The notes beneath the pieces were generated by a model. The model ran no database searches. It was not told the DNA's origin and saw only the letters and a program-made list of their open reading frames with translations. 64,000 nucleotides of DNA from Rubellicoccus peritrichatus (GTDB lineage: Bacteria > Verrucomicrobiota > Verrucomicrobiia > Opitutales > Cerasicoccaceae), in assembly GCF_033100135.1 (NCBI RefSeq), contig NZ_CP136920.1, positions 1,736,001 through 1,800,000 on the forward strand, given 5' to 3'. Below are positions 4,960 to 16,747 of the stretch, one piece after another. Both the position numbers and the translations under genes were made by a program. Each line of letters opens with the position of its first letter. The first letter of the stretch is position 1.

Positions 4960-5475
4960 ATGATTGCCAATCGCCCACTAGTGCTCCGCAGTAATCGCTT
5001 TCTTGGCGCGGCCTTGACTGATGCCGGCCTGATTTTGAATGAAGACTTGGAAGCGGCGAACGAGAAGGTCCTCCAAGCAGTTCAGAAAGAAGATCCTCGA
5101 GGTGCCAATTTGCTCAATATTCTGCTTTACGATTTGCAGAAGCTTGATGAGCCAGCCTTGATTGATGAAACACTCGAACAGCATGACATCGGAGTTATTG
5201 ATCTAGCCAATTACGATCTTTCCTTTTTGACCGAGACTGAAGTCAGCTTCAGTATCTGCTGGTCAACATTCACGGTACCGTTTGATTGTGTTGAGAATTT
5301 TACCATGATCGCAACAGCTTACTACTTGAGTAAGCCGACGATAGATTTCTGGGAAAGCCAGTTTGATGGTCCGATTATTTGGTATGTTTCTTCGGTTGCT
5401 TCGATTGCAGATGCCTTAGCGCGTGCCGAGACAGAAATTGAAGCCAAATCGAACGAAAAAAAGGGTGCCACTTGA
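4960..5475 (+). CDS. MshEN-like (GspE N-terminal) domain protein
   Basis: A free-standing 171-residue protein. Residues 12-80 read like the MshEN/GspE N-terminal domain: FLGAALTDAGLILNEDLEAA, a second helix-turn pattern ending in LLYDLQKLDEPALIDETL, then the strand IGVIDLANYDL. In GspE/PilB-type ATPases this domain couples the motor to its platform and can bind c-di-GMP. Here it is not fused to an ATPase; the rest (about 90-170) is unassigned. It begins 19 bases after the predicted 6S RNA and heads the run of genes that ends with a GspE-type ATPase at 10349. Working as a regulatory or docking partner of that ATPase is inference. Confidence 0.5.
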   Translation: MIANRPLVLRSNRFLGAALTDAGLILNEDLEAANEKVLQAVQKEDPRGANLLNILLYDLQKLDEPALIDETLEQHDIGVIDLANYDLSFLTETEVSFSICWSTFTVPFDCVENFTMIATAYYLSKPTIDFWESQFDGPIIWYVSSVASIADALARAETEIEAKSNEKKGAT

Positions 5476-5637
5476 GCCTACGGAAAATTCCTTGTCCCGT
5501 TGAGGTCTTTGCATCATCAGAACGCTTCAGTGCTTTCCCCTTATGGATCGCTAAGTATCAATAATGCGTGAAAATATTAGTTGTGCTGGCCTTATACCTA
5601 GCAATTCGTTAAAAAGAGAGTCATTGTTTAAATAAGT

Positions 5638-6984
5638 ATGGGTAAGCGGATTCTAATCCTGGATGATGATGCAGATTTTAATCACCTGTTGACTGACATC
5701 TTCAGTCAGGCAGATTATGACGTAACCTCTGAACGTGATCCGGAAGTTGCAGTTGGTCTTTTCGATAATTCAACTTTTGATCTGGTTGTTACTGACCAGA
5801 AAATGCCAGGTTTGTCCGGAGAGGAATTCATACGTGAGGTAAAAGCCAAACGTCCGGATTTGCCCGTTATTATGGTATCCGGTTATCTTGATAATGATAC
5901 AATCCGGAGATTGATTAAAGAGGGAGTCGGCGGTGTTTTTCTCAAACCACTCAATGTCTTTTCCCTGCTCAAGCGTACCGCGGCATTGATTGAGGAGCGG
6001 GAAGCAGGTTTGCGACGCAAGGAACAAGCTGATTTGGAGCAGTCTGTTGTTGAGCCGGAACACTTTCAACACAGCCTGCCTTTTTCATTCAAAACGTTCC
6101 CTTGTAAGGCTGCCAAGTCAGTCGAATTTGCCAAAAAACTTTATTCACTGAGAAATTTTAAATCTAACTTGATCATCGTTGCGGCTCCTGGAGTCGATAT
6201 GCATTCGATCATTGATGATTTAAATGGTTTTGATGTCGCTGGTGAAGAAGCATTTCTATTTGTCGATTCAAGGCATCTATCAGAGGATGGTTTTCTTGAG
6301 CTTATCGACCAGGGAGTGCGTAGGGGTGCAAGCCGTGTAACGCTTGTGATCGGGCATGCTGAGCGTATGACATCGCCCCAGAAGAAGATTGTATTTGCGG
6401 CTTCATCTGGTGATGCCCCTTTCGAGTCTATTGGAACCCCGTTGAGGTTCATCTTTCACGTTTCGGATGATCTGGACGATCTGTATGATGCAGGTGAGAT
6501 CGATGATGACCTCTACATGTTTATGGGCACTTCCGAGGTCAAGGTCCCGGCTCTTGTCGATATTCGGGAAGATATTCCGCTACTGGCACATAGTTTCATG
6601 AGGGATGAGTGTGACCGCTTGGGGCTTGAGCCTATCCCATCGCTTGAATCACCAGCCCGGGTATTTTTGCGTGATTGGGATTGGCCCGGGAATGCAGCGG
6701 AATTGAAGCGCATGCTGTCACTTGCTTTGGAATTGGAAAAACCGCGCCTTTCCCGTGAAGACTTAAGGGAGATTGGTTCAAAAATCCGTTCCTCGTCGAA
6801 TGCAAAGCGTTTCGACTTGAGGCATGAGTTGGAAAACCACAGAACGGATTTATGTCGAGCAGCACTGATTTTTTCTAATGAAGAACCCACACAGGCATCT
6901 TCGATACTTAATATCCCGCCTGATCTTATCTCGTCCGTTTCAGATTTGGACGGCATAAAGAAGGCTTACATGTCCAAGCTATGA
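5638..6984 (+). CDS. Response regulator with degenerate NtrC-type AAA+ and Fis domains
   Basis: A 448-residue protein. Residues 3-120 are a complete receiver domain: acidic pocket D9-D10-D11, phospho-acceptor D53 in VVTDQKMPG, switch S81 and K103 in FLKPL. Residues about 140-375 align with the sigma-54 activator AAA+ domain, but the Walker A loop and the GAFTGA loop are absent. Only late landmarks survive: DIREDIPLLAHSFM and DWDWPGNAAELKRML. The C-terminus (about 395-435) keeps the outline of a Fis helix-turn-helix without its usual residues. It is therefore a phosphorylatable protein that probably cannot hydrolyse ATP or act with sigma-54. The next gene starts in an ATGA overlap. A paralogue lies at 8984. 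Confidence 0.75.
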   Translation: MGKRILILDDDADFNHLLTDIFSQADYDVTSERDPEVAVGLFDNSTFDLVVTDQKMPGLSGEEFIREVKAKRPDLPVIMVSGYLDNDTIRRLIKEGVGGVFLKPLNVFSLLKRTAALIEEREAGLRRKEQADLEQSVVEPEHFQHSLPFSFKTFPCKAAKSVEFAKKLYSLRNFKSNLIIVAAPGVDMHSIIDDLNGFDVAGEEAFLFVDSRHLSEDGFLELIDQGVRRGASRVTLVIGHAERMTSPQKKIVFAASSGDAPFESIGTPLRFIFHVSDDLDDLYDAGEIDDDLYMFMGTSEVKVPALVDIREDIPLLAHSFMRDECDRLGLEPIPSLESPARVFLRDWDWPGNAAELKRMLSLALELEKPRLSREDLREIGSKIRSSSNAKRFDLRHELENHRTDLCRAALIFSNEEPTQASSILNIPPDLISSVSDLDGIKKAYMSKL

Positions 6985-7679
6985 GCTCTACATCTCAACT
7001 TTCAGATCTTCCTCAAGGCGTTCAACTATTGGGTGAAGCTTGTTTTCACGAAGACTTTTCCGTTGAACATACTGAAGGACATCTCAGCGATGTCGATTCA
7101 CTTGGAGTCCTTTTGCCGACCATGATCCGATCAGCATCAAGCTGTGGTGATTCGTTTGGAGCAGGTGAGTTTCAAGGTGTCGTCTCTCTTGGCGAAAAGC
7201 GTGGTTTGGTCATTAGTATCAACGATGAGAAAAGCTGTTTCCGACTTTTCGATGGAGCGACCATTTGGAGTGACTTGAAGGATGAGAAGTATGAGCGTAA
7301 CTGGTCTCAGAGTGGCTTCCCGCTTTTTTATAATTTAGATTACATCGGACAGGTCTTCAAAAGTTTGGGATCCGTGAAGTGGTACGGCCTTCGAGATAAT
7401 GAAGATAATCGGTGGAGTCAGGAGTTTTTGGATGATAGTCTGGACACCAATGCTGTTGAGAGTGCCACTATGATGACATTGCAGATTGATATGTTGCTCA
7501 AAGGGCAGGATCTGCCTCGCGGTCGTATTCGGTTGGATTTTGAGAATGGCCAACTTTGGATTTGGGCATCAGTCACTGACGATTACTTGATGGCCTACAC
7601 AGAGCGAGTTGATAATCGCTCGGACTTAAGTGCAATTGAACAATTGGGAGAAGCATTCCTCCTCGGGCCTTTAGTTTAG
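6981..7679 (+). CDS. Unknown protein translationally coupled to the pseudo-NtrC regulator
   Basis: A 232-residue soluble protein that I do not recognise. It starts in a 4-base ATGA overlap with the preceding response regulator, so the two are very likely made together. No signal peptide, membrane segment or catalytic motif is visible. The composition is acidic, with several aromatic strands (for example SVKWYGLRDN near residue 132 and GQLWIWASVTDDYLMAY near 190), which suggests a compact alpha/beta or beta-rich fold. The position inside the MshEN/response-regulator/GspE cluster suggests a partner or effector in that pathway. Confidence 0.7.
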   Translation: MSSTSQLSDLPQGVQLLGEACFHEDFSVEHTEGHLSDVDSLGVLLPTMIRSASSCGDSFGAGEFQGVVSLGEKRGLVISINDEKSCFRLFDGATIWSDLKDEKYERNWSQSGFPLFYNLDYIGQVFKSLGSVKWYGLRDNEDNRWSQEFLDDSLDTNAVESATMMTLQIDMLLKGQDLPRGRIRLDFENGQLWIWASVTDDYLMAYTERVDNRSDLSAIEQLGEAFLLGPLV

Positions 7680-7786
7680 CAGGAAAACAGATTTTGATCT
7701 ACTGCCTTTTACGCCTTTGGGGGACAAATGCAGTATAGACGGAGACTTAGTCCAAAAGTTCCCTTATCTTATTTGTGCATATTTCT

Positions 7787-8626
7787 TTATCGCCGCCGAT
7801 TTCGGATAATTGCCAATATTCCGGCAAAGCCAATCAGTGCGAGAGTGCTAGGCTCTGGAACGACGGTAGTTACCGAAGCGAAGCTGTTTCCGAGTCGAAT
7901 TTCATCCCAATTTGTATCTGCGTTTGAGAAACTGGCAAAAGAGATACGGTCAAAAGTCATATTAAATCCTGAGATGGCCGTGCCTGCACCAGGATTGGTT
8001 AAGTCGGGATTTTGCCATACAGTGACTTGATCGTTATTAGTAATCGCCGAAAAGTCGATTTGAACGACGAAGAGATTTACCCCGCCGTCGTTCGGGCCAA
8101 GTACTTCTGATTGAGTTATGGAGACATTGTCTAGGCGTATACCGTAATTCGTCGAACTGCCAAAGTCTCCAGTGTGAAATCCAATCTGAAGCTTTCTATC
8201 GCTACCGTCTCCAAACCCCCCATTGTGAAGCTCGAAAGCTCTATATGTAGAGCTGCTACTATCTTCTGTCTGCATGAGAAAGCTGAGATAGATGGTTTCG
8301 GATGAGGTGTCTGTGTAAGGAGTCGTTAGAAGACGACCAACTCGGTTACCAGAGCTAGTACTGAAAGCGCTTCCTCCGCTTGCCGGAGCATAATTGCTGT
8401 CGCTGTAAGTCAGGCCAGTATCTGAAGCGAGAACTCCAGTCCCGACTCCACTCAACCAATTTCCAGTCATTCCACCTACATTAGTCGGCCCTTGTCCTAC
8501 CAGGCTGGCATTCCCATTGTAATTGGGGGCGCCACCAGTAGTGAAAGGATCATTGATAATGATCGCGTTCGCGGTCATGGCCGCCGATGTGAAAAGAGCC
8601 AAGCTGAAGATACTTAATCTATGCAT
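7787..8626 (-). CDS. PEP-CTERM sorting-domain protein
   Basis: A secreted protein of about 279 residues if it starts at the Met at 8626, giving the signal peptide MHRLSIFSLALFTSAAMTANA. A start up to 63 bases upstream is possible. The C-terminus is a textbook PEP-CTERM signal: VPEPSTLALIGFAGILAIIRNRRR has the VPEP motif, a hydrophobic helix and an Arg cluster. Such tags are cut by an exosortase at the inner membrane and go to the surface or exopolysaccharide. The middle is Gly/Ser/Asn-rich with WLSGVGTG and a concanavalin-like jelly-roll pattern, as in many verrucomicrobial PEP-CTERM proteins. It lies antisense within the response-regulator cluster. No exosortase gene is in the window. Confidence 0.88.
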   Translation of the reverse strand: MHRLSIFSLALFTSAAMTANAIIINDPFTTGGAPNYNGNASLVGQGPTNVGGMTGNWLSGVGTGVLASDTGLTYSDSNYAPASGGSAFSTSSGNRVGRLLTTPYTDTSSETIYLSFLMQTEDSSSSTYRAFELHNGGFGDGSDRKLQIGFHTGDFGSSTNYGIRLDNVSITQSEVLGPNDGGVNLFVVQIDFSAITNNDQVTVWQNPDLTNPGAGTAISGFNMTFDRISFASFSNADTNWDEIRLGNSFASVTTVVPEPSTLALIGFAGILAIIRNRRR

Positions 8627-8983
8627 AACTGAAGACGAACATATCATACGCAAGATGAACCTGAGATGAAAGCACCGCACAATTAGCATTTTTTACATTC
8701 ATGTGACGACAGAATGGCCGTGCTTGCATCGCAATGAACACCACCTTTTAAGCTCCTATTTGGATACGCACTAAAATGAACTAAGGTTTTCAATTCAGGT
8801 ATTGAGAATTCGTCTAAAGAAAACCAGAATCATTGCCGATAGTTCTCGGAATCGACCCTGTCAGATATCTGAAGGTTTTCAGATTATGTCTAAGTGCTTG
8901 ATCCAGATTCATTTTTATCGCATAAGTCTTGTTTTAACCTAGCTAGAATATTTGGAAAACCGCTTCCGCACCTGCTCGTTCTG
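8627..8983. other. Divergent intergenic region
   Basis: About 360 bases separate the start of the PEP-CTERM gene from the start of the second pseudo-NtrC gene, reading in opposite directions. It must hold both promoters. I see no clear hairpin terminator, operator dyad or correctly spaced sigma-54 site in it. Confidence 0.5.
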
Positions 8984-10339
8984 ATGGCTCAAAAAATACT
9001 TGTTTTAGATGACGAGGAAAACTACGCCGAGATGCTTGAATCTCTGCTAGAGCAACATTTCTTTCTGGTCGATTCTGCTACCAAGCCTGAAGAGGCCTTG
9101 AAAGCGCTCGAGCAGGAGGGTTATGAGCTCGTCATTTCCGACTACAAAATGCCGGTCATGGATGGGGCAGACTTTCTGCTAAAAGCCCGAGAAATTAACC
9201 CGGACTTGCCATTCATTATTGTTTCCGGGTTGATGAATACCCCCGAGCTGGTGAAGGTCGCAAATATGGGCGTAACGCTCGTCCTTGAGAAGCCGATCGA
9301 TATCGAGAACTTCATCAATCAGGTAAAAAACTTTGTCACTCCGCTTGCGGAAGAGGAGTACGCGGATGTCAAGTCGAGTGACGGTGATAGTTCTGAAGGA
9401 AATGCGCCAACCGTTCGTAAATTCATCAAAACCTATCCCGATGATCTTGAGTTTGTTTCAGATAGCTCTGCGACGATGCAGTTTTTTGTCCAGGATCTAT
9501 GGGATGCGGTTCAGGAGCAATCTCACATCTTTATTTCCATCCCTCCGGGCAGTGAGATCGAGTTAATTTTACGGGAGATTAAGCGCTGGAAACAGTTCCC
9601 AGGGAAGAAGTTCCATGTGGTGTGCCCCGGTCCCAGTGTCAGTTCGACTGAGTTACTTCGGCAGTTTACTCTTGTTGCCAAAGATGATTCTTATGCAAAT
9701 CTGATCGCGGTTACGGGTTTTTCATCTGCACCACTCAGCGCTCAGGAAATGTTGGTCGATGCTATTCGTGAAGCCCCTGACGATCTCTGTTTTACTTATT
9801 TTATTGAAAGTACGTTGTTGGATCAGGCTGCACCTGCGATTAACGAGGAGTTGCTCGAATTGATTCAGGAAAGCCTCTGCAGAATGCCACCATTAAAGGT
9901 GCGTCCTTCCGATTTAGCAACTTACGTAAAGCGCATTCTTCCTCGTATTGCTCGTGTAGAGGGGCATTCAGCTATTGCTGAAGTTGAGCCTGATGCCGCT
10001 CGTGCGTTGCTCGCATATGACTGGCCCGGAAACTTTGCTGAGCTTATTTCTGTATTACGCAGTGCGGCCATAGTGGAAGAGTCCAATGCGTTAACCTCAG
10101 AATCTGTCCAGCGATTTTTGAAGGGCTCAAATGCTGACCTGACGGATCTTGAATCCCATTTGGCTCAGTACCAGGCCGATTTACTCAAAAAAGCGACAGA
10201 TGATTCCGGAGAGTCTACCATGCAGATACTTGAAGCTCTTGGAGTCGACTATGAGCCAACCGGCGAATCAACAGAAGGTGCTGATTTCCCGCTTCTTTTT
10301 CCAGATTTGTTGACCACCCCAGTGGCCGTTAAGGCCTGA
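8984..10339 (+). CDS. Second response regulator with degenerate NtrC-type AAA+ and Fis domains
   Basis: A 451-residue paralogue of the gene at 5638. An in-frame ATG lies 90 bases upstream, but the receiver domain begins right after the Met at 8984 (MAQKILVLDDEE), so this start is preferred. The receiver is intact: D9/D10, phospho-acceptor D53 in VISDYKMP, a conserved Ser and EKPI lysine. The following region lacks Walker A and GAFTGA; the AAA+ origin shows only in AYDWPGNFAELISVLR near residue 345. The end (about 385-425) is an eroded Fis-like segment. It ends 9 bases before the GspE-type ATPase and is almost certainly co-transcribed with it, so its phosphorylation state may control that motor. 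Confidence 0.75.
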   Translation: MAQKILVLDDEENYAEMLESLLEQHFFLVDSATKPEEALKALEQEGYELVISDYKMPVMDGADFLLKAREINPDLPFIIVSGLMNTPELVKVANMGVTLVLEKPIDIENFINQVKNFVTPLAEEEYADVKSSDGDSSEGNAPTVRKFIKTYPDDLEFVSDSSATMQFFVQDLWDAVQEQSHIFISIPPGSEIELILREIKRWKQFPGKKFHVVCPGPSVSSTELLRQFTLVAKDDSYANLIAVTGFSSAPLSAQEMLVDAIREAPDDLCFTYFIESTLLDQAAPAINEELLELIQESLCRMPPLKVRPSDLATYVKRILPRIARVEGHSAIAEVEPDAARALLAYDWPGNFAELISVLRSAAIVEESNALTSESVQRFLKGSNADLTDLESHLAQYQADLLKKATDDSGESTMQILEALGVDYEPTGESTEGADFPLLFPDLLTTPVAVKA

Positions 10340-10348
10340 CCTTGAGAT

Positions 10349-12250
10349 ATGCCCTTAGCCAGAATTCAGGTTTCCATTGTTACCCAGGTTCATAAGCTGG
10401 GGCGGATTTCAAAGGAGACAGCTGATGAAATCATAGGCACGCCCGAGGAGCTCTCTGGAGACGCACTTGAAAAACTCCTGATGTCAGATCATGGTCTGAC
10501 TGAGTTCCAGATGCTGGTGGCGAAGAGTCGGGCCGTCGGCCTGACGCCTTTTAATGCACAGAAATTTACGGCCGATGAGCGTACTTACGAAAAACTTGAT
10601 CGTGACTTTTGTATCGAAAATCAGGTTTTGCCGATAGGTCTGGTTGGCAGCAATATGGTTGTTGCTGTTTCGAACCCCTTTGACCTTTCCGTCATCAATC
10701 GAGTCCAGGAAACCACACGCCGTAAGGTCGTTGCTTTGCTGGCTCTTGAGCGGGATATCAAATCCGGTTTGACGGATCCGAGTTCGGATCAAGCGCCAGT
10801 TGCAGAGGGATTTGGCGATGTTGTCGAAGCTCTGGATATGGAGTTCGATATCGACGAGGTCGATCTTGATGACGATGAGGATGCGGAAGAATCAGCTCCA
10901 ATTATTCAGTTGGCCAATCGTATCATCGAAGACGCCTACTACTCGGGAGCCAGTGATATCCATATTGAGCCTTTCGAGAAGGACTGTCGCGTTCGGGTTC
11001 GTGTTGATGGGGTTCTAACCGAAAAGCTCAATGTGCCCAACAAGGTTGCCGCCGCTTTGCTCGCCCGTATCAAGGTCATGTCGAATCTTGATATCGCTGA
11101 AAAGCGCCTACCACAGGATGGTCGTATTGTTTTTAAGCAGTTTACGAAGAAGCCAATCAATATCGACCTTCGTGTTTCCACTGCGCCGCTGAATCACGGT
11201 GAGGGCACTGTGATGCGTATTCTGGACAAGTCAAAGTCGACTTTGCCGCTTCCGGCTCTTGGTTTTGAACCTCACAATCTTGAAAAGTATCGTGAGTGTA
11301 TCACGCGCCCCTATGGTATGGTGTTGCACTGTGGGCCGACGGGTTCGGGTAAGTCGATGACGCTTTATTCGGCTCTGAACGAGATCAATGATCCAGGCAT
11401 ATGTATTCGTACTGCGGAAGACCCGATCGAGTATACGCTCCCGGGACTGTGTCAGATGCAGATGCAACGCAAGATCGGCCTGACCTTTGCCTCCGCGCTC
11501 CGCGCTTTTCTCCGACAAGACCCGGACATTATTCTTGTGGGGGAAATTCGTGACCAGGAAACTGCCAACATCGCCGTTGAAGCAGCACTCACCGGACACA
11601 TGCTTTTCAGTACGCTTCACACCAACGATGCCCCGGGCACCATTGCGCGTTTGACTGATATGGGTGTCGAATCATTCATGATTTCAGCGTCTCTCGTCTG
11701 CGTTTGTGCCCAGCGGCTGATGCGTCGAGTCTGCAAGAGCTGTCGTCAGCCTTATGAACCTGAAGGGCGTGAGTTGGAAATTCTTCGCAAGGCGATCAAG
11801 TTTGAGTCGGGTACTATCTATCGTGCAAACCACACCGGATGTCCAAGCTGCGACGGTAAGGGCTATAAGGGGCGCGTTGGTATTCACGAATTGATGACAT
11901 CAAGTGAGCAACTTGTTGAAGGCATCAATAAGGAGCTTGAAACGGCAGAGCTGAAGAAAATCGCGATGTTTAACGACATGTCGACTCTCCATATGGACAG
12001 TATGCACAAGGTGAAAGCTGGTACGACGACGATGGAGGAATCGATTTCAACCATACCACCTGATATGGAAGACCTTGAGGCGCTCGCCGAAGAGTTCGCT
12101 CTTCAGCAGGAGCTACAGGAAAGGAAAGACGCCGAGCGCAAAAAGGAATTTGAAGGGATCAAGGAGCGGAAGGCCGAAGAGGAGTCAGACGCCGAAGGAA
12201 CGGATGATTCTGAGGCAACAGAAACGACAGAGACTGTCGAAACGACTTAG
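10349..12250 (+). CDS. GspE/PilB-family secretion or pilus ATPase
   Basis: A 633-residue hexameric motor ATPase of the type II secretion/type IV pilus family. An N-terminal MshEN region (about 5-140) is followed by an acidic linker and the CTE domain. Key motifs: Walker A GPTGSGKS (329-336), Asp box RTAEDPIEY, Walker B with [16 protein letters not shown], His box [13 protein letters not shown], and two zinc-binding CxxC pairs (C462/C465 and C498/C501). It energises assembly of pseudopilus or pilus fibres at the inner membrane. Unusual features are the absence of any secretin, platform or pilin gene nearby and a highly charged tail of about 45 residues rich in Glu, Lys and Thr. GspE versus PilB cannot be decided. 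Confidence 0.9.
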
Positions 12251-12288: not shown

Positions 12289-13383
12289 TTATGATTGCTT
12301 CTTGGGCAGTACGATTGTGAAGGTAGTGCCTTCGCCAGTGGTTGTGGTGAATTCAATCGTTCCACCATGCGCCTCAATGATTGATTTAACAATCGCTGTG
12401 CCCAGTCCTGTGCCCCGGCTTTTCCCGTAGGTTACGAATGGGGTGAAGAGATTATGGCGGATTGATTCCGGGATTCCCTTGCCGTTGTCGGAAACAACCA
12501 GTTCCACGAAATCACCGATATCGTTGATATGAACCTGAACGAGGCCCGATTCGCCTTCATCAAACGCATCAATGGCGTTTCCAACCAGATTTTGCAGGAC
12601 GCGAAGCAATTTGTTTTCTTCGCCTTCTATTTCGATGGGCGCTGATTGCAGTTCTATACTTACCTTTTCCTTTTGGAAAAAGGGTTCATTCAATTCACGG
12701 AAATGATCGAGTAACTTTGAGAGATCAACTGTTTCGATTCGCACGACTTGCTCTCCCTTGGAGAACTCACTGATTTCATTGGCCATTTCAACCATCCTGA
12801 AAACCTGAGCTTCGATATTATCACAAAGCTTGATTGTTTTGGGATCGGTATGTTTTGCGCGTATGAGTTGGGCACCCAGGCTGATCAGTGTGAATGGGTT
12901 TTTAAAATCATGAATGATCGAATTCACCATGGTTCCGACAAGCCCCATCTTTTCCTGCTGCAGCATGTCGTCAATGTAGTGCTTCGTCGTCCCGTGGAGG
13001 TGATTAACAATGCTGCCAAGGATTTGCTCGATTGGTCCCGGTGTGTGCTTAATGAAGTCAACAAGATCGTCGCGCTCGACCTGGGCAATACGGACTGTGG
13101 TATGGGCCACTGCACTCAAAGAGCGTGGAGCACCAGTGAATATGCCAACCTCACCAAAGAACTTACCCTCCTCTGCCAGGCTCACTGTCCTCGACTTTCC
13201 GTCAGGCGTTTCCTTAACAAATGCGACGGATCCCTCCAATACCAGACACAAGGTATCAGATGGGCTGCCTTCGTCAAAAATACTCTGGCCAGCTTCGAAG
13301 TCGGAAAGGCATGCATTGGCTGCCAGTTTGGCAACTTCTATGTTATCCGCGGATCGAAAAAAGGGATGCTCTTCGAGCTTCAT
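12289..13383 (-). CDS. Histidine kinase with N-terminal cyclic-nucleotide-binding domain
   Basis: A 364-residue soluble sensor kinase. Residues about 5-130 form a cNMP-binding (CRP-like) beta-roll, with KFFGEVGIFTGAPRS as the phosphate-binding cassette. Then come a DHp helix with phospho-acceptor H158 in SIIHDFKNP and a HATPase domain: N-box NLVGNAIDAF, G1 DNGKGIP, F-box LFTPFVTYG and G2 GTGLGTAIVKS. No transmembrane helix is present. It has no receiver gene beside it on this strand; the two receiver proteins at 5638 and 8984 are plausible but unproven partners. It lies 97 bases downstream of the psp-type genes, with no terminator between, so it may belong to that operon. Confidence 0.9.
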   Translation of the reverse strand: MKLEEHPFFRSADNIEVAKLAANACLSDFEAGQSIFDEGSPSDTLCLVLEGSVAFVKETPDGKSRTVSLAEEGKFFGEVGIFTGAPRSLSAVAHTTVRIAQVERDDLVDFIKHTPGPIEQILGSIVNHLHGTTKHYIDDMLQQEKMGLVGTMVNSIIHDFKNPFTLISLGAQLIRAKHTDPKTIKLCDNIEAQVFRMVEMANEISEFSKGEQVVRIETVDLSKLLDHFRELNEPFFQKEKVSIELQSAPIEIEGEENKLLRVLQNLVGNAIDAFDEGESGLVQVHINDIGDFVELVVSDNGKGIPESIRHNLFTPFVTYGKSRGTGLGTAIVKSIIEAHGGTIEFTTTTGEGTTFTIVLPKKQS

Positions 13384-15724: not shown

Positions 15725-16747
15725 ATGGATGTGATAAATGAACTGGAGGCGAAAGGCGAATCAGATGCCTTTATCGACTTTCAAGAATGCTTGAGTCGGG
15801 TTGCTCCGATTGAGCGTCCGGTTCTGGTTCTTGGTGAGCGGGGGACCGGTAAGGAGCTCGCGGCCAAGCGCCTTCATTTCCTCTCAAAGCGTTGGGATGC
15901 CCAATTGATTACCGTGAATTGCGCTGCCTTGACGCCGTCTTTGCTCGAATCCGAGCTCTTTGGTCATGAAGCAGGCGCATTCACTGGGGCTGCCAGGATG
16001 CGTGTCGGACGATTTGAAGCTGCTAGTGGTGGGACGCTTTTTCTTGATGAGCTCGGAAATGTGCCACTGGAGGTGCAGGAAAAGATCCTGCGGGCAGTGG
16101 AGTATGGAGAATTCGAGCGGGTTGGATCATCAAAGCCGGTTCGGGTTGATGTGCGTTTGATTGCAGCAACAAATGCGGATTTACCCAAACTTGCCAAAGA
16201 GGGGAAATTTAAGGCGGATTTGCTCGACCGTCTCTCTTTTGAGGTGCTTCATCTACCGCCGCTTCGCGAAAGGCGGGGCGATATTGAATTACTGGTCAAT
16301 CTCTTTGCGGCTCGAATGACTCAGGAGCTTGGCTGGGAGGATGTGCCAGGCTTTACTGATGATGCCTGGGCAAAATTGGAGAGCTATGCCTGGCCGGGGA
16401 ATATTCGTGAACTCAAAAATACTATTGAGCGCTCGGTCTATCGATCAGAGGGGGGAGCCATTGATGAAATTACTTTCGATCCTTTTGCCCGATCTAATGA
16501 TTCGGAAGTTGTGTTTTCCAATACTGCCGATCAGAGCAAACCATTGGAGGATCGCTTATCGAAGGATATTGAATTCAGCGAAGTCGGTTTTGATTTGAGA
16601 GCCGCCGTGGCCGATCTGGAAAAGCGAGCCGTCCTTGAGGCCCTTGAGCGTTGCCGCCACAATCAAGCAGCAGCTGCCAGATTCCTCGGCTTGGGCTATC
16701 ATCAGTTTCGCGGCGTTTATCGAAAGTATCAGGAGGATTTTGATTAA
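15725..16747 (+). CDS. pspF: PspF-type sigma-54 transcriptional activator
   Basis: A 340-residue enhancer-binding protein with no N-terminal sensor domain, as in PspF. The AAA+ domain (about 15-235) has Walker A GERGTGKE, the sigma-54 loop GAFTGA, Walker B GGTLFLDELG, the arginine region ATNADLPKL and WPGNIRELKN. A Fis-type helix-turn-helix closes the protein (about 295-335, with RHNQAAAARFLGL). It uses ATP to open sigma-54 promoters and should activate the divergent pspA operon, with PspA as its likely inhibitor. Its stop overlaps the stop of the convergent gene at 16744 by 4 bases. Confidence 0.93.
   Translation: MDVINELEAKGESDAFIDFQECLSRVAPIERPVLVLGERGTGKELAAKRLHFLSKRWDAQLITVNCAALTPSLLESELFGHEAGAFTGAARMRVGRFEAASGGTLFLDELGNVPLEVQEKILRAVEYGEFERVGSSKPVRVDVRLIAATNADLPKLAKEGKFKADLLDRLSFEVLHLPPLRERRGDIELLVNLFAARMTQELGWEDVPGFTDDAWAKLESYAWPGNIRELKNTIERSVYRSEGGAIDEITFDPFARSNDSEVVFSNTADQSKPLEDRLSKDIEFSEVGFDLRAAVADLEKRAVLEALERCRHNQAAAARFLGLGYHQFRGVYRKYQEDFD

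Follow-up and report, generated by a model that had tools for sequence, protein, structure and literature searches.

Here we describe a five-gene cluster in a 64,000-nucleotide stretch of the Rubellicoccus peritrichatus genome (positions 1736001-1800000 of a single-contig genome of 5.8 Mb; hereafter the window). The cluster, at 4960-12250 of the window, lies on the forward strand and begins with ORF4960 (4960..5475, +), a free MshEN-like protein of 171 residues with a degenerate cyclic di-GMP (c-di-GMP) motif. It is followed by RR1 (5638..6984, +), a response regulator with an intact receiver, a degenerate sigma-54-activator AAA+ domain and no HTH_8 match, and by U6981 (6981..7679, +), a predicted tandem protein of the Roadblock/LC7 fold that overlaps RR1 in an ATGA. 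RR2 (8984..10339, +) likewise combines an intact receiver with a degenerate AAA+ domain, and ends in a conserved LLYPELL-like tail where activators have their recognition helix. The last gene, PilB-M (10349..12250, +), begins 9 bases past the end of RR2 and encodes a PilB/GspE-type ATPase of a distinct subfamily, with intact catalytic motifs and one MshEN domain. An initial annotation made from the sequence alone had listed these five genes, the overlap and the 9-base spacing; all are present as it described, and homologues stand in the same order in other genomes. The host group of this gene set is probably a single verrucomicrobial order, Opitutales.

The ATPase and its MshEN-like partner

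PilB-M matches T2SSE (3.1e-124) and MshEN (9.6e-13), and the window protein retains GPTGSGKS and GEIRD. Across the PilB-M set, GPTGSGK (Walker A) and GEIRD were found in all 67 proteins examined and two CxxC motifs in 66 of the 67. With its domains and catalytic motifs intact, the protein is a full ATPase of the PilB/GspE type, as first annotated, and it scores below the NCBIfam equivalog cut-offs for both PilB and GspE. In a tree of 33 hand-chosen rows, only four of them from outside the order and with long branches flagged, PilB-M groups, at 100/100 support, with the genome's own GAF-PilB in a clade that stands apart from the PilBs of type IVa pili (T4aP), the GspEs and four PilBs of other members of the class; the class PilB clade has 99/93 support, and the tree leaves the deeper branching order unresolved. 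The GAF-PilB paralogue (L002:1489-3942; C1:1197690-1199207) carries GAF N-terminal to MshEN and is 59% identical to the ATPase of the window within the matched region, and long frames resembling it were seen in relatives. Elsewhere in the same genome another PilB-like gene (L064:15239-17547) adjoins a stand-alone receiver protein, a further neighbourhood of receiver and motor.

ORF4960 is less readily recognised. The single sequence gave zero matches in Pfam or NCBIfam, while a profile of 11 homologues searched against the PDB matched six distinct sequences up to E = 1, all of them N-domains of the PilB/MshE type, with weak E-values of 0.0034-0.26; a relative in L105 matches MshEN below threshold (E 0.017). 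The MshEN-like identity first given to this protein thus stands as distant homology, seen by profile and at weak E-values.

The distribution of the two proteins was examined in a main sample of 54 genomes, 27 with PilB-M and 27 without, using presence and absence rules of our own. PilB-M was called where a match began at query residue 1-3 with at least 55% identity. Longer paralogues of the GAF-PilB type were excluded, the GAF domain itself having been checked in the window genome only; a gene split across contig ends (G008) was counted as present, and a 64% complete genome with an unclassed PilB fragment (G024) was counted among those without. The cut-offs for RR1 and RR2 were 3.6e-47 and 2.3e-29, and Fisher tests were made by genome and by family, with phylogeny uncorrected. 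ORF4960 is present in 26 of the 27 PilB-M genomes and in 0/27 of the others (3e-14 by genome, 4e-7 by family), and the single PilB-M genome without it, G026, is 50% complete. A second collection, the best 80 of 163 ORF4960 loci found in genome contigs (at least four of the 80 belong to genomes also in the main sample), has ORF4960 directly before PilB at 72 loci, RR1 and RR2 between them, with or without U6981, at seven, and no PilB at one. The pair is near-constant and mostly adjacent, which is strong sequence evidence that ORF4960 serves an accessory motor of the pilus type as its dedicated partner. With both genes together in 26/27 genomes, PilB-M and ORF4960 make a clean, testable candidate complex.

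In a class-wide sample of 384 genomes the ORF4960 profile matched 97, of which 46 are in the order and 51, with weaker matches, are outside it; three of the outside-order proteins, when examined, carry tetratricopeptide repeats (TPR) together with MshEN. Two loci from other families of the class (L113, L114) hold a cluster in which a TPR-MshEN protein and PilB are accompanied by an MglA-like GTPase and by a long protein whose end resembles Roadblock weakly at most. L113 has a Roadblock protein in addition, and L117 is similar by gene order. This cluster is a possible GTPase-controlled counterpart. Kinship of PilB-M to it was considered and rejected, as the two do not group in the PilB tree. 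A search for MglA of the class type had a match in 0/21 order genomes, against 5/5 of the other class genomes; in G289 and G058 an MglA-like match lies away from the MshEN locus.

The two regulators, U6981 and the neighbouring genes

The receiver domain PF00072 is significant in both regulators (RR1 1.1e-20, RR2 9.6e-20), as is the AAA lid of sigma-54 activators, PF25601 (RR1 3.1e-09, RR2 1.9e-10), and RR1 also matches Sigma54_activ_2 below threshold (2.6e-04). We aligned 16 RR1 and 19 RR2 sequences. Residues D10, D53, S81 and K103 are present in all 35 rows and D9 in 34. At the positions aligned with Walker A, the GAFTGA loop, Walker B and sensor I, these motifs are gone from 16/16 RR1 and 19/19 RR2 rows; RR1 of L066 has one loose Walker-like string, away from the aligned position. 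Because the receiver residues are kept in the same rows that have lost Walker A, GAFTGA and Walker B, selection appears to maintain the phospho-switch but not the transcription machinery. The WPGN motif is exact in both window proteins, in 3/16 RR1 rows and in 16/19 RR2 rows, and a pattern composed after inspection of the alignment finds the LLYPELL-type tail in 17 of the 19 RR2 rows. HTH_8 was matched in neither window RR1 nor RR2 by a search that did match it in a PspF-type gene at 15725 (2.8e-08). Neither PATAN nor DUF4388, which we take to be the name of the PATAN domain, is among the Pfam matches of RR1 and RR2 at E<=1.

An RR2 profile matches NtrC-family chains over both receiver and AAA. 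The predicted RR2 model (pLDDT 79.7, pTM 0.62) has its best E-values with NtrX, NtrC1, NtrC4 and LuxO, at a whole-chain TM of ~0.39 and a large root-mean-square deviation (rmsd); this is not a tight match, and such a low value is as expected if the domains of the modelled chain are flexible. RR2 can be read from a GTG at 8894; its start should be the ATG at 8984, because most homologues begin there, and from that start D53 falls as initially annotated in both regulators. The remaining claims for the pair also held: the alignment found neither Walker A nor GAFTGA, WPGN is retained, the missing HTH_8 match agrees with an eroded Fis-like end, and the PF25601 lid and the matches of RR2 profile and model to NtrC-type proteins agree with descent from sigma-54 activators. 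The sequence comparisons support the view that both regulators are NtrC-type descendants without the parts that would let them activate sigma-54 with ATP or bind DNA in the Fis manner.

RR1 occurs in 21/27 PilB-M genomes against 2/27 of the others (Fisher 2e-7 by genome, 0.001 by family), and all 20 genomes with RR2 also have RR1. In the window's family, f1, five of ten genomes hold the whole set together; in the window it is interrupted by an insertion (described below), and in G008 it reaches a contig end. In family f11 the run is complete except for U6981, and the same holds for G036 (f3), where a second ORF4960 copy lies between RR2 and PilB-M; RR2 adjoins PilB-M in f1, f10, f11, f18 and f22. 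The initial annotation had suggested looking for conserved co-occurrence of all five genes. Regulators and ATPase are indeed linked in several families, but the conserved core is ORF4960 and PilB only. Judged by gene content, RR1 and RR2 make up a separate pair, able to live apart from the ORF4960-PilB-M core.

U6981 was found in 11 of the 54 genomes, namely all ten of f1 and G017. Pfam gave no match for the window protein at E<=1, nor for the G017 homologue at E<=0.01. Its AlphaFold 2 (AF2) model, from a four-row alignment, has two EEHEEEH repeats with pLDDT 83.4 and pTM 0.83 (the other four models score 73.4-53.8). Foldseek placed MON1-CCZ1 complexes in the top rows, with low TM and large rmsd, followed by Ragulator/Roadblock proteins and, from rank 14, MglB, at E ~1e-3; VIA aligned both halves to Roadblock-fold proteins with a best Z of 8.4, borderline for that tool. 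Matches of a U6981 profile to lectin-like and other PDB entries (best E 0.0076) were judged to be chance, so the fold assignment rests on AF2, from which U6981 appears to be a tandem Roadblock protein. In G017 (L056:2299-11014) RR2 and the U6981 homologue are clustered with a V4R-domain protein, a second V4R match below threshold and a Ser/Thr protein kinase.

A gene that the initial annotation had not mentioned (7787..8689, -) splits the cluster between U6981 and RR2, where the gap is 1305 bp in the window against 56-155 bp in eight relatives. It encodes a protein with a PEP-CTERM sorting signal, is an insertion seen in none of the eight relatives compared, and was judged to lie outside the system. 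Convergent with pilB and adjoining it is a gene for a soluble histidine kinase (12289..13383, -) with a cyclic-nucleotide-binding (cNMP-binding) domain, HisKA and HATPase, a possible but unproven kinase of the system. A linked kinase was sought by all-against-all BLAST of the open reading frames (ORFs) of 25 stretches, and rejected: the kinase group recurred in only four (the window, L063, L107, L126). Beyond this group and the core genes, recurrence in at least four of those stretches was limited to two neighbouring genes in L046, L048, L050 and L051. As first annotated, no pilin, secretin or platform gene is nearby: BLAST of the window ORFs of at least 80 residues with six type IV pilus and type II secretion proteins from the same genome (three GspF, one PilC, one GspD fragment, one PilT-like) matched PilB alone, and one narrow prepilin pattern had zero matches among the window ORFs.

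Control of the motor

We favour, with modest confidence, the reading that the cluster is a dedicated control cassette for PilB-M, an accessory assembly ATPase of the type IV pilus or type II-like kind, in which RR1 and RR2 are phospho-switches that act by contact and not on transcription, as the initial annotation had also proposed. ORF4960, homologous to the ATPase's own N-terminal domain, would dock on the PilB-M ring as an adaptor. An unlinked histidine kinase would phosphorylate the receivers of RR1 and RR2, phosphorylation would alter how their dead AAA+ domains oligomerise, and these would then contact ORF4960, PilB-M or both. One regulator may be an activator and the other a brake, as PilG and PilH are in Pseudomonas. 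The conserved tail of RR2 is a candidate docking peptide, and the tandem Roadblock protein U6981, added in the window's family, is perhaps a scaffold. The machine served is likely, by our assignment, the T4aP of an operon pilB-pilT-pilB2-pilC at C1:1705549-1711515, ~35 kb upstream of the window pilB; pilC was named as T2SSF by Pfam, and the other genes by similarity and our own reading of the sequences.

Contact between regulators and motor is made likelier by the recurrent adjacency of RR2 and PilB-M, by the retention of the receivers despite the loss of the transcription machinery, and by the precedents of PATAN regulators, PilG/PilH and PorX. We infer such control from linkage, and the linkage has exceptions that weigh against it. 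Six PilB-M genomes lack RR1 (G022, G032, G039, G040, G043, G049) and nine lack RR2, while in family f21 (G029, G047) RR1 and RR2 stand in tandem without ORF4960 or PilB-M, a longer PilB paralogue being present. Several loci are scattered: in four of the ten f1 genomes RR1, U6981, RR2 and PilB lie together with ORF4960 elsewhere; in another, G006, ORF4960-RR1-U6981 and RR2-PilB are on separate contigs; in f4, ORF4960, a lone receiver and RR1 are together and PilB-M is elsewhere; and in G011 and G017, RR1, RR2 and PilB-M are on different contigs, each genome still having ORF4960 adjoining PilB-M. The RR2 tail is absent in L058 although PilB-M is present there, and the flanks of the cluster loci show no kinase, pilin, platform or secretin gene that recurs widely.

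The strongest rival, which we nevertheless regard as unlikely, is that RR1 and RR2 still work in transcription, as inactive subunits that co-assemble with a genuine NtrC-type activator or by sequestering sigma-54 or a kinase, and so tune pilus genes. Such a role, to the disadvantage of the contact model, would suit family f22 (L107; L070 and L134, which are one genome), where an intact NtrC-type regulator lies 76-103 bp past RR1; the gene order there (L107:6453-9756, L134) is ORF4960, RR1 and then this regulator, and the one protein tested matches Sigma54_activat at 3.3e-71 and HTH_8 at 4.2e-15. It would also suit the existence of RR1 and RR2 without PilB-M in f21. Yet a GAFTGA gene lies within 3 kb of RR1 or RR2 in only three of 38 stretches, from two f22 genomes, a fourth match (L067) being an ORF antisense to RR1, and the window pair has neither an HTH_8 match nor the sigma-54-contacting loop, which is lost in every aligned row. 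We give a similarly low probability to the proposal that the regulators serve some other output and merely share an operon with ORF4960 and PilB-M, so that linkage would reflect shared expression and not contact. The modules do separate, since f14, f24, f5 and f8 have the ORF4960-PilB-M pair without RR1 and f21 has both regulators without the pair, and the RR2 of G017 has V4R proteins and a Ser/Thr kinase as its neighbours; against this stand the adjacency of RR2 to PilB-M in the five families named above, the second ORF4960 copy between them in G036, and the way RR1 tracks PilB-M.

The initial annotation had further noted that MshEN domains can bind c-di-GMP and act on such ATPases; an input of this kind was not upheld here. 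That ORF4960 is a free c-di-GMP receptor relaying its signal to the ATPase, like MshE, seems to us highly improbable. MshEN domains that bind c-di-GMP have two 24-residue binding motifs. The domain of ORF4960 is a distant relative of MshEN, and domains with imperfect motifs may bind the nucleotide (PMC5013675). GGDEF genes occur in nine of the 54 genomes, seven of them among the 27 with PilB-M. Against this, the window genome had no GGDEF match, in a search positive in 8 of 14 genomes, and 20 of the 27 PilB-M genomes likewise had none. A relaxed form of the c-di-GMP motif, as published (PMC5013675), was found in 0/80 ORF4960 proteins and 0/70 PilB-M N-domains, whereas the MshE control gave both motifs; the pattern is strict, because the seven other ATPases of the genome and three TPR-MshEN proteins were also unmatched. 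In our reading of the alignment with MshE, R9, Q32, R38, G40, G47 and Q61 are lost from ORF4960, and G11 and G18 are kept.

A more specific proposal, which we put forward tentatively and consider rather doubtful, is that motor control here is independent of c-di-GMP, and that a phosphorylatable pair of enhancer-binding proteins with dead AAA+ domains, an MshEN adaptor dead as a receptor and a tandem Roadblock protein as scaffold replace the Ras-like GTPase MglA and the Roadblock partner used elsewhere in the class. If the contact reading of the cassette is true, the scaffold of an enhancer-binding protein can give up ATP hydrolysis and DNA binding and be turned into the regulator of a motor, and there is a route to pilus control that is independent of c-di-GMP. 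Among the titles and abstract openings of the matches listed in our literature search the gene set is undescribed, which is weak evidence of novelty as subscription journals were mostly outside that search.

Comparison with known systems

PilG and PilH of Pseudomonas are lone receivers, and the output domain of PorX differs from that of RR1 and RR2. The two window regulators share receiver, AAA fold and lid with activators of the NtrC/NtrX type, and differ from them in the loss of Walker A, Walker B and GAFTGA throughout the alignment and of HTH_8 in the window pair. ORF4960 is distantly homologous to the MshEN domain of MshE and PilB; in contrast to that domain it is a free protein, has mostly lost the c-di-GMP residues and occurs in a genome without a GGDEF match. 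The Myxococcus proteins MglA, SgmX, FrzS and SopA are described in PMC11580455 as adaptors that bring PilB to the machine. MglB of that system is a Roadblock protein, as U6981 appears from its model to be; the system differs in relying on the GTPase MglA, whereas receivers are found here and class-type MglA was not matched in the order genomes searched.

A close likeness is to the PATAN response regulators PixG, PilG and TaxP2 of Synechocystis, which, as the available portion of PMC10519157 reports, contact PilB and are thus receiver proteins whose other domain contacts a pilus extension ATPase. Their contact domain is PATAN and they belong to chemotaxis-like systems, whereas RR1 and RR2 have a dead AAA+ domain; that portion of PMC10519157 names no free MshEN partner for them, in contrast to ORF4960 here. 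The same source describes two receivers with opposite effects on PilB placement and extension, PilG and PilH of the Pseudomonas Chp system. Theirs is a chemotaxis-like system with a kinase, ChpA, and no kinase recurs widely beside the RR1/RR2 cluster. PorX of the type IX secretion system binds the machine part PorL (PMC5005315) rather than acting directly on genes, and so offers a response regulator in contact with a machine, although a different one. PilB-binding response regulators are therefore known from cyanobacteria in the PATAN proteins, and the RR1/RR2 cassette would be a further kind, built from different parts.

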